Assembly: GCF_009674885.1 (NCBI RefSeq)
Contig: NZ_WKKA01000007.1
Coordinates: 124,001 to 188,000 of the forward strand
DNA from: Paracoccus sp. S-4012
GTDB lineage: Bacteria > Pseudomonadota > Alphaproteobacteria > Rhodobacterales > Rhodobacteraceae
DNA: 64,000 bases
Direction: 5' to 3'
Numbering within the stretch: the first letter of the stretch is position 1; each line of letters begins with the position of its first letter. The position numbers and the translations under genes are program-made. The notes below the pieces were generated by a model that saw only the letters and a program-made list of their open reading frames with translations, did not search any database and was not told the origin of the DNA. Below are positions 1-41,090 of this stretch, piece after piece.

Positions 1-809
1 ACGACGTTCTCGTGCCACCACTTCTCGCAGATCACGCGCGGGAAGTTCATCCACACCGCCGAGCCGCGCAGATGCGCCGCGTTCGACATCAGCTCATGCC
101 CGCCGAGATGCGATTCGAAGACCTTGCGGCAGGTCTCGACCGTCTCCTCCTTGGTCATGTGCTCGAAGCCCATGCGGTCCCAGACTTCCTGCGTCGTCTC
201 GACGATGAAGGTCGCGGTGTTCTCGTCGAACTGGTAGACATGGGCCCACATCCAGCCGGCGTCGGTCTTCTCGAAGATGAAGGTGAAGGCGTCGTTGAAG
301 TTCTGATGCGTGCCGAGCCAGATGAACTTGCACAGCCGGGTGTCGATGTCGGGCTTGAAGACGTCGGCATATTCCGCCCGCACGCGGCTGTTGATGCCGT
401 CGGCGCCGACCACGAGGTCGTAGTCCTGGCGGTATTCCTCGGCCGACTTGAACTCGGTCTCGAAGCGCATCTCGACGCCCAGCTCGCGGGCGCGCGCCTG
501 CAGCAGGACCAGCATCTGCTTGCGGCCGAGCCCGGCGAAACCGTGCCCGCCCGAGACGATCCGCTCGCCCTCCTTCACGACGGCGATATCGTCCCAGTAG
601 ATGAAGCTGTCGCGGATCGCGTCGGTGGACTTGGGGTCGTTCTTCTGCATCCGCTCGAGCGCGTCGTCGCTGAGGACCACGCCCCAGCCGAAGGTGTCGT
701 TGGCGCGGTTGCGCTCGATCACCGTGACCTCATGGGCCGGGTCGCGCAGCTTCATGCTGATGGCGAAATAGAGCCCCGCAGGCCCTCCTCCCAGGCACAG
801 AACCTTCAT
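1..809 (-). CDS. FAD-dependent aromatic-CoA monooxygenase, N-terminal part (3' end outside window)
   Basis: About 269 residues are visible, running off the left edge. The protein opens with a dinucleotide-binding glycine motif (LGGGPAGLYFA) and continues with the ERNRANDTFGWGVV segment and a DLVVGADGINS motif, the pattern of class A flavin hydroxylases. The overall sequence most resembles salicylyl-CoA 5-hydroxylase or anthraniloyl-CoA monooxygenase, in which this flavin domain is fused to an old-yellow-enzyme domain of about 370 residues. Whether that second domain is present cannot be seen. Such enzymes hydroxylate CoA-activated aromatic acids in the cytoplasm using NAD(P)H and O2. The ATG at 809 follows a GGGAGAG ribosome-binding site. 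The substrate is inferred from family resemblance only. Confidence 0.8.
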   Translation of the reverse strand, partial: MKVLCLGGGPAGLYFAISMKLRDPAHEVTVIERNRANDTFGWGVVLSDDALERMQKNDPKSTDAIRDSFIYWDDIAVVKEGERIVSGGHGFAGLGRKQMLVLLQARARELGVEMRFETEFKSAEEYRQDYDLVVGADGINSRVRAEYADVFKPDIDTRLCKFIWLGTHQNFNDAFTFIFEKTDAGWMWAHVYQFDENTATFIVETTQEVWDRMGFEHMTKEETVETCRKVFESHLGGHELMSNAAHLRGSAVWMNFPRVICEKWWHENV

Positions 810-888
810 CCGTCTCTCCCTCGCGCATGGCGCGTGTGTGGTGGGAGAGGTTGTGGCACGGGGAGGGGGGATGTTTCAAGCTTGAAGT

Positions 889-2217
889 TTAGGCGGGCAG
901 CACCTCGACCGCTGCGTCTGACTGCGGCTTAGCCAAAGCTTTCTGTCGCTGTCGAGCCGCGTGCAGTATCCGCTCCGTCGCATCAAGCGTGTCAAGATTC
1001 CGCGTTGCATCACAGAATTTCCAGAACTCGCCGGTTGAGTGAAAGCCTTGAGGATTGATCAGGAAATTTCCCAGCATCGGCCGGATCAGGTTCCGCAGTT
1101 GACTGATACAAGTATCATTGACGCCCAAGGTCCAGTTTTCACCATGTGTCGCGCTGTTCCGCCTAGCTCGGAGGTGAAGCCCCACGATCTCAGCAACATG
1201 GCTATCCGAATAGAACGACGCGACACGCCTGATAAGAACGTCTGACTTTTCCTCCTGCCCGCCAGCAATCACCTCCAGCAACCGCCATCCTGAAAAGATG
1301 GACTTAGATGACTGATGTTCGCTGAATGCATCATAGTACAAGAGGAGCGCCGCCTCACATTTTTCTCGCCAACACGACTGAACTACGGCATCCAGAACTC
1401 TGCCGACCTCCGCTGTTACGCTCGATATCCTCTCTTCCAGAGGCTGTGCAGGCAAGCGTCTCTTCGGCACCCACTCGGTATACCAGAAACCCTCGTAAGC
1501 GGATTGACCAGCCAGGTTGTGCACCGTGGACTGCGGGCCGATCAACAGTTGCAGCGAGGGCTTGTGGACCGACTTTCCGAAAATGTCAAAGGACTCGGAG
1601 CCGTCCACAAATGTTGTGCAACCGATAATCATGGCGATGGTCTTGTAGGCACGCTCAAAGGCGTCTTCCGGGGCGTTAGCGTACACCTTTGCTACGATAG
1701 TTTCATAGCTCGGATGATCGGAAAAGATTGTTTCAAACAGATACTTCGACTCATGTCGGATGCGCTCGCGCTCCCTCTCAATCGCAGCAGAAACGTCACC
1801 GGATATCTCCGGGAAGAACGTTACCCTCTGATCCAAGACAGGTAGAGGAGGCTTCAAGATCCCCGTTTTCCCCCATATCGAAAATGCGACAAGGTACGGA
1901 AGCTTTTTCCCGCGCAGCTTCTTTCGTTCCTCTGTATAGAGCGCGATGAATTGATCAGGCGTTGGCTCCTGGACGCGCCGCGAAGCGCGCTTAATGGCAG
2001 TCTCGTGGATAAACCCCGTCACTTGTGAATCCCGAACTGCTGTCTTGAGGAGTTCGATCCAGTAGTCGTCGCCGCCAAACCGACTGAAGGAGGTCGATCC
2101 ATCATCATTGATGGTACGGCTCTGCGATAAACCATGCAGAATTACTTTAGCTGAGTTCTTGTCTTGCCAACTAATCACCTCCTCACCCCCACACCCCCTC
2201 AAACTCGCGCCATTCAC
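889..2217 (-). CDS. Hypothetical protein with C-terminal HEPN-like (RNxxxH) RNase motif
   Basis: A protein of up to 442 residues that I do not recognise as a named family. The C-terminal third looks like a HEPN domain: helical segments around residues 285-320 (ending WRLLEVI) are followed by R-N-S-A-T-H at 353-358, which fits the R-x4-6-H active site of HEPN ribonucleases, including the N or D usual after the Arg. HEPN proteins of this layout (Apea-like) are often found in antiphage or toxin systems, but no partner antitoxin or nucleotidyltransferase is adjacent. Base composition is clearly lower in G+C than its neighbours, suggesting horizontal gain. The start is uncertain: the ATG at 2217 lies inside the end of thyX, while a GTG at 2178 sits directly against an AGGAGG and is poorly spaced. 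Confidence 0.6.
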
Positions 2218-3088
2218 CCTTGCTCATCCCGCTCGTCTCCTGCGTGACCGCCTCCCCGCGCAGCCGCCGCCGTATCACCTCCACCCCCTTCGCGGACAAC
2301 TGCACCCCGCCCAGCCGGTAATCCTCGAACGCCGCATGTGCCGCCGGGACCCAGTCGGCGACGATCTGTCCCATCACCTCGGCATAGGCGCGGATTTCCC
2401 ATTGCGCGTGGGCGTCGGCGCGCAGGCGCAGGAAGTGGAACAGGTTGTGCAAATCGCATTTCCAGTACCACTGGGTATAGACCGAGGCCGGCAGGTTCAT
2501 CCGCGCCAGCTCCCGCGCGAGGCCCTGCTGGCCGTCTGTGGACAGCATCGCCTCGTAATGGTCATAGGCCCGCGTCGCGTCCTCGCGCAGCAGGTCCAGC
2601 ACCCGCGCCGCCTCCGCCCCCTCCAGCACGGCGCCGCGGCCCTGGTGGTTGACCGAGGATTGCGCCGCCAGATGCTCGGGCGAGGGCGTGTAAAACTCGC
2701 GCTCGAGGATCGAATAGCGGGCGGAATATTCGTTCACATTGGCGGTGCGGTGCCTGATCCACTGCCGGGCCACGAAGACCGGCAGCTTGACGTGGAACTT
2801 GACCTCGCACATCTCGAACGGGGTCGAGTGCCAGTGCCGCATCAGGTAGCGGATCAGCCCGGCATCGTCGCTGACCTTCTTGGTGCCGGCCCCGTAGCTG
2901 ACCCGCGCCGCCTGCACGATGGCCGAATCATCGCCCATGTAGTCGATGACCCGCACGAAGCCGTGGTCGAGGACCGGATGCGCGGTGTAGAGGCGCGCCT
3001 CCATGCCGGGGCTGACGGGCCGCAGCGTGGGGCGGGGCGCGGCGCGGGAGGCCTCGATCTCGGCTTGCTGTTCGGGGGTCAGGGTCAT
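2183..3088 (-). CDS. thyX: FAD-dependent thymidylate synthase ThyX
   Basis: A 301-residue ThyX, which methylates dUMP to dTMP using methylene-tetrahydrofolate, FAD and NADPH, so no dihydrofolate is produced. The family signature is present as [15 protein letters not shown] from about residue 112; this ThyX motif binds FAD and dUMP. The start chosen is the ATG at 3088, with AGGAGG six bases upstream; longer in-frame extensions upstream look non-coding. Its 3' end overlaps the longest form of the following HEPN-motif gene on the same strand. It is divergent from the glyoxalase gene at 3225. Confidence 0.95.
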
Positions 3089-3224
3089 CGCGCGCCTCCT
3101 GTCTGCTTTCCACATCTTGTGGATCATGGCCGGGGTTCGCGCAACGGGCGGTGGCGTTCTCGCGGTGGCACCGGCGGCCGCGGCGTGGCAGGATCGGCGC
3201 GAACCGACCGCCAAGGGGGCCCGC

Positions 3225-3653
3225 ATGACGATCCGCTACCTGCACACCATGGTCCGCGTGAAGGACCTCGAGAAATCGATGGCCTTCTACCGGCTGCTGG
3301 GCCTCGAGGAGACCCGCCGGAGGGACGACGAGAAGGGCCGCTTCACGCTGGTCTTCATGGCCCCACCCGGCCAGCCGGAGACGCCGGTGGAGCTGACCTA
3401 CAACTGGGACGGGGACGAGGGCCTGCCCTCGGACAGCCGCCATTTCGGGCATCTGGCCTATGAAGTGGACGACATCTACGCCACCTGCCAGCACCTGATG
3501 GAGAACGGGGTGACGATCAACCGCCCCCCGCGCGACGGCCACATGGCCTTCATCCGCAGCCCCGACAACGTGTCGGTCGAGCTTCTGCAGAAGGGCGAGC
3601 GGCTGCCGCCCCAGGAGCCCTGGGCCAGCATGGGGAACACCGGCCACTGGTAA
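3225..3653 (+). CDS. gloA: Lactoylglutathione lyase / glyoxalase I family (VOC) protein
   Basis: A 142-residue single-domain vicinal-oxygen-chelate protein. It begins with the typical glyoxalase I segment ([17 protein letters not shown]) and contains VELTYNWD and [11 protein letters not shown], in which the His and Glu residues expected to bind the metal are present. Glyoxalase I isomerises the methylglyoxal-glutathione adduct to S-lactoylglutathione. The start is the ATG at 3225, agreeing with family length; GGGG lies a few bases upstream. It is divergent from thyX and followed immediately by a strong terminator. A related VOC enzyme with another substrate is possible but less likely. Confidence 0.9.
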
Positions 3654-3656
3654 GCA

Positions 3657-3680
3657 AAAGGGCGCCTCTCGGCGCCCTTT
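3657..3680. terminator. Bidirectional intrinsic terminator between gloA and the DEAD-box helicase gene
   Basis: Perfect 10-bp stem AAAGGGCGCC/GGCGCCCTTT with a TCTC loop. T residues follow the stem on the plus strand and an A-rich flank gives U residues on the minus strand. It lies 3 bases after gloA and 6 bases before the end of the convergent helicase gene, so it can serve both. Confidence 0.85.
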
Positions 3681-3686
3681 CCTGTC

Positions 3687-5045
3687 TCAGCCCCGCGCCC
3701 GCTGCGCGGATTTCGGCGCCCGCGAGGGCCGCCCCGCCGGGCGGTTGCGCTGCTGCGGCTTGTTGCCGCCGCCGTTCCGCCGCGGCGGCTCGGGACGGGC
3801 CGGGGGCTCGCCGCCGATGACCGGGATCTCGGCCTTCATCGCCCGCTCGATGTCCTTCAGCGCGCTCCACTCGTCCGGGGCGCAGAAGGCCACGGCGCGG
3901 CCGTCGCGGCCGGCGCGGGCGGTGCGGCCGATGCGGTGGACGTAGTTCTCGGGGACGTTCGGCAGGTCGTAGTTGTAGACATGCGCGACCTCGGGGATGT
4001 CGAGCCCCCGCGCCGCCACGTCGGTCGCCACCAGCACCTGCGTCTGCCCGGCGCGGAACGCGGAAAGCGCCCGCTCGCGCTGCCCCTGGCTCTTGTTGCC
4101 GTGGATCGCGGCGACCGAGAAGCCCCACTTCTCCATCAGCTTCGAAAGCTTGTCAGAGCCGTGCTTGGTGCGGCCGAAGACGATCGCCAGCTCGCCGGGA
4201 TGCTTGGCCACATATTCGGCCAGCAGCGCCGCCTTGTCGCCCTGGTTCACGAAGTGGACGCCCTGCGCGATCTTCTCGGCCGCTTTGCCGGGCGGGTTCA
4301 CCGCCACGCGGACCGGATCGGTCAGGTAGCTGTCGGCCAGCTCCTCCATCAGCTTCGGCATGGTGGCGCTGAACAGAAGCGTCTGGCGGTTCTTCGGCAG
4401 CACCCGCGCGATGCGGCGCAGCGCGTGGATGAAGCCGATGTCGAGCATCTGGTCGGCCTCGTCCAGCACCAGATAGCTGGTCTGGCTGAGGTCCACGGCG
4501 CCGCGGTCGATCAGGTCGATCAGCCGGCCCGGCGTCGCGACGAGCACATCCACGCCGCGCGAGAGCCGCTCGGCCTGTGCGTTCAGCGAGGCGCCGCCGA
4601 CGACGCGGTAGGCGCGGACGGGCGTCCCCTGGGCGTAGGAGTCAACGCTGGCGGTGATCTGCGTCGCCAGTTCGCGCGTGGGAGCGAGGATCAGCGCGCG
4701 CACGGTCTTCGGCGCCGGACGCCCGCCCGCTTTCAGCAGCCGCTCGATCATCGGCAGGCCGAAGGCGGCGGTCTTGCCGGTGCCGGTCTGGGCGAGGCCC
4801 AGCAGGTCGCGGCCGGAGACGATGGCGGGGATCGCCTCGCGCTGGATCGGCGTCGGCTCGGTCATGCCGAGCGGCGGCAGGTTGGCGCAGACTTGGGCGT
4901 CGATGCCCATCTCGTAGAACGGGCCCTCGGCCAGCGGCGGGGGCGCGGGCGCGCGGCGGCCGGCGTTGGCTTCGATCGCCGCTCCGAACGGCTTGCCCCC
5001 ACGGCGCGGCGCGCGGCGGGTGCGGGTCATGGTCATGTCGTTCAT
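3687..5045 (-). CDS. DEAD-box ATP-dependent RNA helicase (RhlE-like)
   Basis: A 452-residue DEAD-box helicase. Motifs in order: Q motif (MTEPTPIQ, about 61-68), Walker A AQTGTGKT (85-92), PTRELA, DEAD (195-198), SAT (226-228), VATDVAARGLDIP, and HRIGRTAR near residue 370. The C-terminus is a short basic Pro/Arg/Gly-rich tail, as in RhlE-type enzymes that remodel ribosome-assembly intermediates or structured mRNA. The ATG at 5045 (MNDMTM) is chosen because upstream codons look non-coding; its Shine-Dalgarno (GAAGA) is weak. It is transcribed alone and ends at the terminator shared with gloA. The subfamily (RhlE rather than another DEAD protein) is inferred. Confidence 0.93.
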   Translation of the reverse strand: MNDMTMTRTRRAPRRGGKPFGAAIEANAGRRAPAPPPLAEGPFYEMGIDAQVCANLPPLGMTEPTPIQREAIPAIVSGRDLLGLAQTGTGKTAAFGLPMIERLLKAGGRPAPKTVRALILAPTRELATQITASVDSYAQGTPVRAYRVVGGASLNAQAERLSRGVDVLVATPGRLIDLIDRGAVDLSQTSYLVLDEADQMLDIGFIHALRRIARVLPKNRQTLLFSATMPKLMEELADSYLTDPVRVAVNPPGKAAEKIAQGVHFVNQGDKAALLAEYVAKHPGELAIVFGRTKHGSDKLSKLMEKWGFSVAAIHGNKSQGQRERALSAFRAGQTQVLVATDVAARGLDIPEVAHVYNYDLPNVPENYVHRIGRTARAGRDGRAVAFCAPDEWSALKDIERAMKAEIPVIGGEPPARPEPPRRNGGGNKPQQRNRPAGRPSRAPKSAQRARG

Positions 5046-41014: not shown

Positions 41015-41090
41015 TGGTGCCCGGAGACGGATTTGAACCGCCGACACGCGGATTTTCAATCCGCTGCTCTACCAACTGAGCTATCCGGGC
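41015..41090 (-). tRNA. tRNA-Phe (anticodon GAA)
   Basis: A complete 76-base cloverleaf: acceptor stem GCCCGGA/TCCGGGC, D-arm AGCTCAGTTGGTAGAGC, anticodon stem GCGGA/TCCGC around TTGAAAA, T-arm with GTTCAAATC, and an encoded CCA. It follows yacG by 66 bases on the same strand and may be transcribed with the infA operon. Confidence 0.97.

Follow-up and report, generated by a model that had tools for sequence, protein, structure and literature searches.

A lone HEPN-type gene at the thyX stop codon of a Paracoccus genome as cargo of an apparently family-wide, high-turnover slot

Lone HEPN defence proteins, core-genome defence hotspots and small, high-turnover phage hotspots are already known, as described in the accessible parts of the respective papers (PMC10250203, PMC10121019, PMC9122126, PMC11087260). 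Tha, a tail-activated antiphage HEPN protein of S. aureus prophages, is represented in the accessible text by Tha-1, a protein of 301 aa with the site R265NSIMH270 (PMC11087260). By analogy, the HEPN protein described here appears to be built like Tha, as a single protein with a C-terminal HEPN domain carrying RNxxxH and an N-terminal part that has no recognised domain and models poorly, and Tha, as presented there, is phage-borne, as are six relatives of the present protein (PMC11087260). The two are likened by architecture only: Tha-1 has 301 aa and is prophage-borne according to the same text, whereas the present protein has about 429 aa and is encoded in the chromosome, at the stop codon of thyX (PMC11087260). 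In ApeA, too, a HEPN domain of the catalytically active type is preceded by roughly 300 aa of N-terminal sequence, although ApeA-NTD1 is described in the available part of the source as mostly beta, and the weak N-terminal model obtained here is mixed alpha/beta (PMC3710099).

On the genomic side, the core defence hotspots of P. aeruginosa (PMC10250203) and the defence-island hotspots of E. coli (PMC10121019) hold variable defence genes between conserved core genes, an arrangement in which the slot behind thyX resembles both. As far as the accessible text goes, they are filled with mobile elements, frequently next to a tRNA or tmRNA gene, and may reach a large size (1-224 kb for cDHS1). The thyX slot is mostly small, with 19 of the 23 measured Paracoccus slots at 0.7-3.5 kb; no recombinase was found in its scanned cargo, whose first gene often begins at the stop codon of thyX. 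The antiphage hotspots of P2 and P4 are loci of about 1-5 kb with high turnover, for which the accessible text proposes exchange by recombination; they are similar to the thyX slot in being small, quickly changing and placed between two conserved genes, but reside in phages and satellites, whereas the thyX slot is chromosomal and occurs in many genera of one bacterial family (PMC9122126). A search for mobile-element hotspots in six Paracoccus chromosomes has been reported, and the passage on thyX in its accessible part concerns metabolism (PMC10732464). No earlier description of the thyX slot was found in the open-access literature searched and, as far as that literature shows, the thyX address, its family-wide spread, the start-at-stop geometry with an adapted thyX tail, and the HEPN family are new.

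The window, that is, the whole stretch of 64,000 nucleotides analysed here, comes from Paracoccus sp. S-4012 (contig NZ_WKKA01000007.1, positions 124,001 to 188,000). Its minus-strand open reading frame (ORF) 889-2217 encodes 442 aa when counted from GTG 2217 and is followed by a 761-aa FAD monooxygenase-like ORF (named by eye); on its other side lies thyX, which encodes flavin-dependent thymidylate synthase (2183..3088, minus strand; the ORF reaches 3226, and the Met at 3088 is the start in many relatives). An earlier note on this DNA had remarked on a G+C content markedly below that of the flanks, and the figures agree: 0.538 for ORF 889-2217, 0.680 for thyX and 0.706 for the whole window. 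Among 210 sliding windows of 1290 nt (mean 0.708, sd 0.035), the lowest value, 0.536, falls on the HEPN locus, which also holds all five windows with G+C < 0.60. The same note had placed the gene at 889-2217, and the minus-strand ORF is indeed there. The relatives begin a few residues ahead of an invariant Trp (residue 17 of the 442-aa ORF), so the true start is probably GTG 2178, 4 nt past the thyX TGA (2183-2185), which gives a probable coding sequence of 429 aa (889..2178, minus strand). The 13 residues ahead of it in the 442-aa ORF lie almost wholly over the tail of thyX, in another frame. Within the coding sequence, a putative sensor region, residues 14-240 (1498..2178, minus strand), precedes the predicted all-helical HEPN-like domain at residues 240-442 (889..1500, minus strand), and the catalytic-type motif RNSATH occupies residues 353-358 of the 442-aa ORF (1144..1161, minus strand).

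Profile libraries were of little help in placing this protein. The earlier note had named such a search as a check, and with an E cut-off of 10 the full-length sequence had no family match in Pfam, PADLOC or NCBIfam, nor one of ApeA type, although profiles can miss remote relatives. A single PHROGs match (E 0.11) was judged to be due to chance, as was OTUB1 (E 0.15 to 0.32), which alone was retrieved from PDB sequences by a 12-row profile, and the protein itself retrieved none there. The relatives scanned gave weak, scattered profile matches only. The family is undescribed in the libraries searched. The placement came from alignment and structure modelling instead. The RNxxxH motif that had been pointed out at residues 353-358 is real: R353, N354 and H358 are invariant in 12/12 rows (the HEPN protein and 11 relatives, 17-38% identical to it), which is beyond chance, and in 8/8 rows of a second alignment, so that the R-X4-6-H catalytic motif of the HEPN superfamily is present. 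Residues 240-442, modelled from 8 rows, are all helical (pLDDT 78.4, pTM 0.70). The top VIA-align rows for this model are HEPN toxins, led by 8xdj with Z 7.5 (rmsd 3.2, 107 aligned), a modest value, since Z below about 13 may mean helical bundles sharing only a common arrangement; 4nqf (Z 7.2), AbiV 9bj7 (7.0) and the sacsin HEPN domain 3o10 (6.7) come next. HEPN stands in the title of 12 of the best 21 rows (Z 6.0-7.5); another eight are structures that we take to be HEPN or HEPN-like (9bj7, which is AbiV, 5yep, 6m6u, 6m6w and 7bxo, which are toxin-antitoxin complexes, 1wwp, 1ylm and 1jog), and the remaining one, 3mfn, has no known function. Plainly unrelated structures begin at Z 5.7. Foldseek alone returned nothing at E <= 0.001 for the C-terminal model (its best row, at 0.63, is a HEPN protein), and a viral-structure search returned nothing at E 0.001. 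The full-length model, built from 7 rows, has a mean pLDDT of 50 with a weak, mixed alpha/beta N-terminal part, and its structural rows (Z <= 4.7) were discarded as uninformative. The N-terminal part, for which no profile match was found and whose model is too weak for a fold to be assigned, may be the sensor domain without obvious known counterpart that the earlier note had proposed. The predicted C-terminal domain has the helical HEPN arrangement that the earlier note had named as a check, and because a HEPN-like fold and a conserved motif coincide, the assignment of the modelled C-terminal domain to HEPN is taken as well supported. RNase activity would be expected of such a domain.

The gene is rare and patchily distributed. 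It was found in 3/61 relative genomes and 2/385 genomes of the class and, with a 5-row profile, in 3/345 genomes of the family and 1/349 of the phylum, each count including the window's own genome; uniform presence across the family, which the earlier note had set against horizontal gain, was therefore not what the comparison returned. The copy of Paracoccus chinensis is 39% identical, lies at the same site behind thyX and has an internal TGA. Further relatives reside on a Shewanella plasmid and in six viral contigs; in five of the latter the gene has a G+C of 0.41-0.44, below that of the surrounding contig stretch, and it is lower also in the six overall. No match was found among 50,697 phage records queried with the HEPN protein or with one phage relative. 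With relatives on a plasmid and in viral contigs counted as evidence of mobility, the view of a mobile, horizontally gained single gene is supported, together with the fold model and the patchy presence; it may act as an RNase against phages. One member of the family (L005:733-1950) starts about 48 nt past the stop of a uvrB-like ORF (named by eye) on the same strand, behind a core gene as in the thyX case, and two of the viral-contig relatives (L126:2683-3906 and L077:2435-3670) have an ORF resembling a Dam-type methyltransferase (by eye) within a few kb.

Comparison of thyX loci suggests what kind of site the gene occupies. thyX itself is patchy in the genus, with 49/125 Paracoccus genomes lacking a match at E 1e-40; all 76 loci of the other genomes were fetched, and 73 were usable after L070, L071 and L083 had been left out (no complete thyX end, or < 600 nt past thyX). 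From other genera, 40 loci were taken, of which 37 were usable (L130, L131 and L142 run into contig ends). A slot was called occupied when the G+C of the first 600 nt after thyX was >= 0.09 below that of thyX; by this definition G002 and G425, whose BglII-type insert lowers the G+C by only 0.06, count as empty in the slot, coupling and tail counts, and were treated as occupied in the tree and pair analyses. Occupied slots make up 17/73 Paracoccus loci and 21/37 loci of other genera, the latter from near the top of the listing (260/335 genomes with thyX) and hence the closer ones, not a random draw. The anomaly is confined in space: low G+C is found in 12/73 Paracoccus loci at +600, 3/73 at +1200 and 1/72 at +1800, in none from +2400 to +8400 (n falling from 72 to 30), in 2/30 at +9000, 1/30 at +9600 and 0/30 at +10200 and +10800, and in 0/72 just upstream of thyX. 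Successive 600-nt windows after thyX in the other genera give 21/37 and then 14, 3, 0 and 0 of 36, with zero at +1800 and +2400. A convergent alpha/beta-hydrolase gene lies beyond thyX in 23/76 fetched Paracoccus loci, and among the 23 slots that it bounds, three are nearly empty (22-69 nt), one measures 11 kb and the rest are the 19 of 0.7-3.5 kb, some of which are not low in G+C. The window's genome has its best hydrolase match (66%) on another contig, and the place after the HEPN gene is taken by the FAD monooxygenase-like ORF. As in a core hotspot, the same core flank borders variable inserts of unrelated families, several of them defence families; the nearest tRNA within the window is at 41015. 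In many relatives, foreign genes of other kinds, often defence-like, sit at this position, so that it looks like a reusable docking site for antiviral genes; judging from the compared loci, the DNA behind thyX is a family-wide, high-turnover slot for often defence-like genes, which is the main finding of this work.

The contents of the slot differ between loci and appear to be often of defence type and often a single gene. In total, 38 cargo proteins were scanned against Pfam (18 from Paracoccus besides the HEPN protein, and 20 from other genera, where 19 of the 21 occupied loci were covered), and 20/38 had no family above the cut-off (8/18 and 12/20, respectively, two of the latter 12 with a weak match). 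The identified Paracoccus cargo includes BglII restriction-modification in G002 (MT-A70 with Endonuc-BglII; G425 and G1141 carry the same insert by DNA similarity), SocA_Panacea with an unknown protein in G020, YaaC in G438, TIR_2 in G424, Abi_alpha in G024, SIR2_2 beside ParA-like frames (by eye) in G013, a ParA-type AAA_31 in G1106 and DUF6973 in G1111; the methyltransferase of G028 and the sugar or polysaccharide-type ORFs of G437 (by eye) are not defence-like. Pfam families in other genera are TIR_2 (twice), GmrSD_N with a weak SLFN_AlbA_2, AAA_15/AAA_21 (twice), HATPase_c, RelA_SpoT and HicB. PADLOC matched 4 of 10 Paracoccus cargo proteins (type II methyltransferase, TIR, PDC-S47 and ThsA-like SIR2) and none of the remaining 6 and, among the 25 commonest families listed for 23 proteins of other genera, there are HEC-04 in three members (best 1.4e-186), TIR-TM in two and PtuA/GajA/Old-type ATPases in two; these defence matches are raw counts. 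The ParA-like and SIR2 frames of G013 (L048) and the HEPN copy of P. chinensis seem disrupted, and slot genes hence appear to decay.

Turnover is visible between close relatives. G020 and G033 match at 93.1% in thyX and 90.6% in the hydrolase gene, yet one carries the SocA pair and the other HEPN; the cargo of G006 and G1141 is different at 97.6% and 91.5%, respectively, and the sole DNA similarity found between these two slots is the same 70-nt hairpin at the far end (95.7%). On a thyX tree of 110 rows, built without the last 48 nt of the gene, the cargo state changes at least 14 times. The BglII-type insert shared by G002, G425 and G1141 has diverged roughly as far as the sequence flanking it, so it may be old, which argues against rapid turnover everywhere. 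A far-end hairpin of the type GTAGGGTG...CACCCTAC abuts the hydrolase stop codon in L043, L047, L068, L069 and L117; it is common to loci that differ in cargo, and might have a role in transfer. In L084 (about 3679-3858) and L087 (about 3488-3679; thyX forward in both), part of another hydrolase 3' end is present between the cargo and the complete hydrolase gene; the L087 piece resembles G434 more (92% over 183 nt) than it does the hydrolase of its own locus (88% over 175 nt). With such remnants next to the cargo in G1119 and G1111, no recombinases in the scanned cargo and no end repeats in the window, the data fit homologous recombination in the conserved flanks as the probable route of exchange. 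Carriage by gene-transfer agents was considered as a route because most slots are < 4 kb.

Occupied slots also differ in how the insert meets thyX. A gene starts at the thyX stop in 24/38 of them, commonly as GTGA: a long low-G+C ORF begins within -20 to +15 nt of the stop in 9/17 occupied Paracoccus loci against 0/56 others, and in 15/21 against 0/16 in other genera. The G+C filter behind these counts works in favour of occupied loci; when it is dropped, ORFs of >= 180 aa give 8/17 against 0/56 in Paracoccus. The eight occupied Paracoccus slots without a long ORF at the stop are those of G1106, G013, G020, G028, G1141, G1111, G006 and G437. The last 27 coding nt of thyX (2186..2212 in the window, minus strand) are C-poor and would form a Shine-Dalgarno-like leader for the downstream gene, as tail composition and predicted anti-Shine-Dalgarno binding suggest. 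Their mean C count is 1.4 in occupied against 5.5 in other Paracoccus loci and 1.9 against 5.1 in other genera, and the predicted binding is -13.7 against -8.6 kcal/mol and -11.3 against -9.7 kcal/mol (p 0.047), respectively. The stretch from -40 to +20 folds more weakly when the slot is occupied (-12.2 against -21.1 in Paracoccus, -11.0 against -19.5 in the others), in part owing to the 20 nt of low-G+C cargo within it, and a control 150 nt upstream shows no weaker folding in occupied loci. Lineage explains part of the tail effect: in Paracoccus, occupied loci have less C (p 7e-6) and better anti-Shine-Dalgarno binding (p 2e-5) in the blocks preceding the tail as well; in other genera, the block adjacent to the tail is not C-poorer (p 0.58), and the next two are slightly so (p 0.007 and 0.006). 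Across 10 independent pairs, the tail goes with the cargo in 6.7 on average and against it in 0, with no difference in 3.3 (median p 0.016). No match to a sigma-70-like promoter was found at 600-3700 of the window, where only 0.5 would be expected. Coupling of cargo translation to thyX in vivo is what we infer from this geometry.

Other accounts of the site have to be weighed against these observations. Any harmless gap between convergent genes may gather foreign DNA, in which case thyX would be irrelevant and the HEPN gene there by chance. The convergent hydrolase gene of 23/76 Paracoccus loci makes for a typical harmless site, and part of the cargo is not defence-like; however, within the examined stretches (<= 11.4 kb in Paracoccus, 3 kb in other genera) the only peak of low-G+C inserts is the one behind thyX. 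Cargo also begins next to the stop codon of thyX, whose tail differs with occupancy, so we regard a mere neutral landing strip as unlikely. Distinctly improbable, in our estimate, is site-specific insertion, by which some recombinase would recognise the thyX tail and cassettes would carry their own copy of it, like integrase islands that restore tRNA ends. Two observations speak for it: the tail is very similar among occupied loci from divergent lineages (CGGGAGTTT in 11/17 occupied against 1/56 other Paracoccus loci, and in 15/21 against 3/16 in other genera), and many insert junctions are exact at the thyX stop. The tail sequence was found only at thyX, however: all 28 matches with <= 3 mismatches in 125 Paracoccus genomes are at thyX ends by coordinates, 8 of them in loci counted as unoccupied, with 2-3 mismatches. 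Moreover, the 38 Pfam-scanned cargo proteins, which cover part of the slot ORFs, include no integrase or transposase family, and no repeat links one end of the insert in the window to the other. The confinement of the tail to thyX and the lack of end-linking repeats likewise speak against an initial suspicion, an integrase attachment site within that tail.

Rather than a defence effector, the HEPN protein itself might be a toxin with an antitoxin partner, or an enzyme that processes RNA. Many HEPN proteins are toxins, and toxins of the HEPN and HEPN-MNT kinds are the closest solved structures; near two relatives there are also genes that resemble antitoxins: close to the Shewanella plasmid copy, on the opposite strand, one annotated as RelB/DinJ, and just upstream of the L075 copy a 95-aa ORF that is Phd/YefM-like by eye. 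In the window, however, no small partner gene lies beside the HEPN gene, its flanks being thyX and the monooxygenase-like ORF, and no MNT antitoxin gene is adjacent (neighbours named by eye); in addition, the patchy occurrence argues against a housekeeping function. A role of this kind is thus quite unlikely.

The reading that we prefer, with a probability of about two in three, is that of a HEPN RNase, most likely of abortive infection, carried as cargo in a refillable thyX slot with coupled expression and exchanged by homologous recombination. In this single protein, some 230 N-terminal residues would probably sense infection and keep the nuclease, the C-terminal HEPN domain with its RNxxxH site, switched off until then, and the gene would most likely act as an abortive-infection defence gene. 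Across Rhodobacteraceae, the slot at the 3' end of thyX would be filled, emptied and refilled with small inserts, often of one gene and often of defence type, swapped by homologous recombination in the conserved flanks. The insert would be transcribed by read-through from thyX; as it often starts at the thyX stop, it may be translated by coupling or by termination-reinitiation, with its ribosome-binding leader within the last thyX codons. Expression coupled in this way could give a constant supply of a nuclease held off by its N-terminal part.

A bolder and more tentative reading, which we consider possible though somewhat doubtful, is that thyX in Rhodobacteraceae ends in an expression dock shaped by evolution. 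The final codons would double as a ribosome-binding leader, so that any gene whose start abuts the stop would be expressed immediately and be linked to thymidylate synthesis, and the dock would serve across genera as a recombinase-free platform for immune cassettes, with many undescribed defence families, including the lone HEPN protein. Nucleotide metabolism is commonly disturbed by phages and, if this reading is true, immune genes borrow the promoter and the translation of a housekeeping gene of that very metabolism. The fixed address after thyX would let candidate antiphage genes be listed throughout the family without prior knowledge of what they are.
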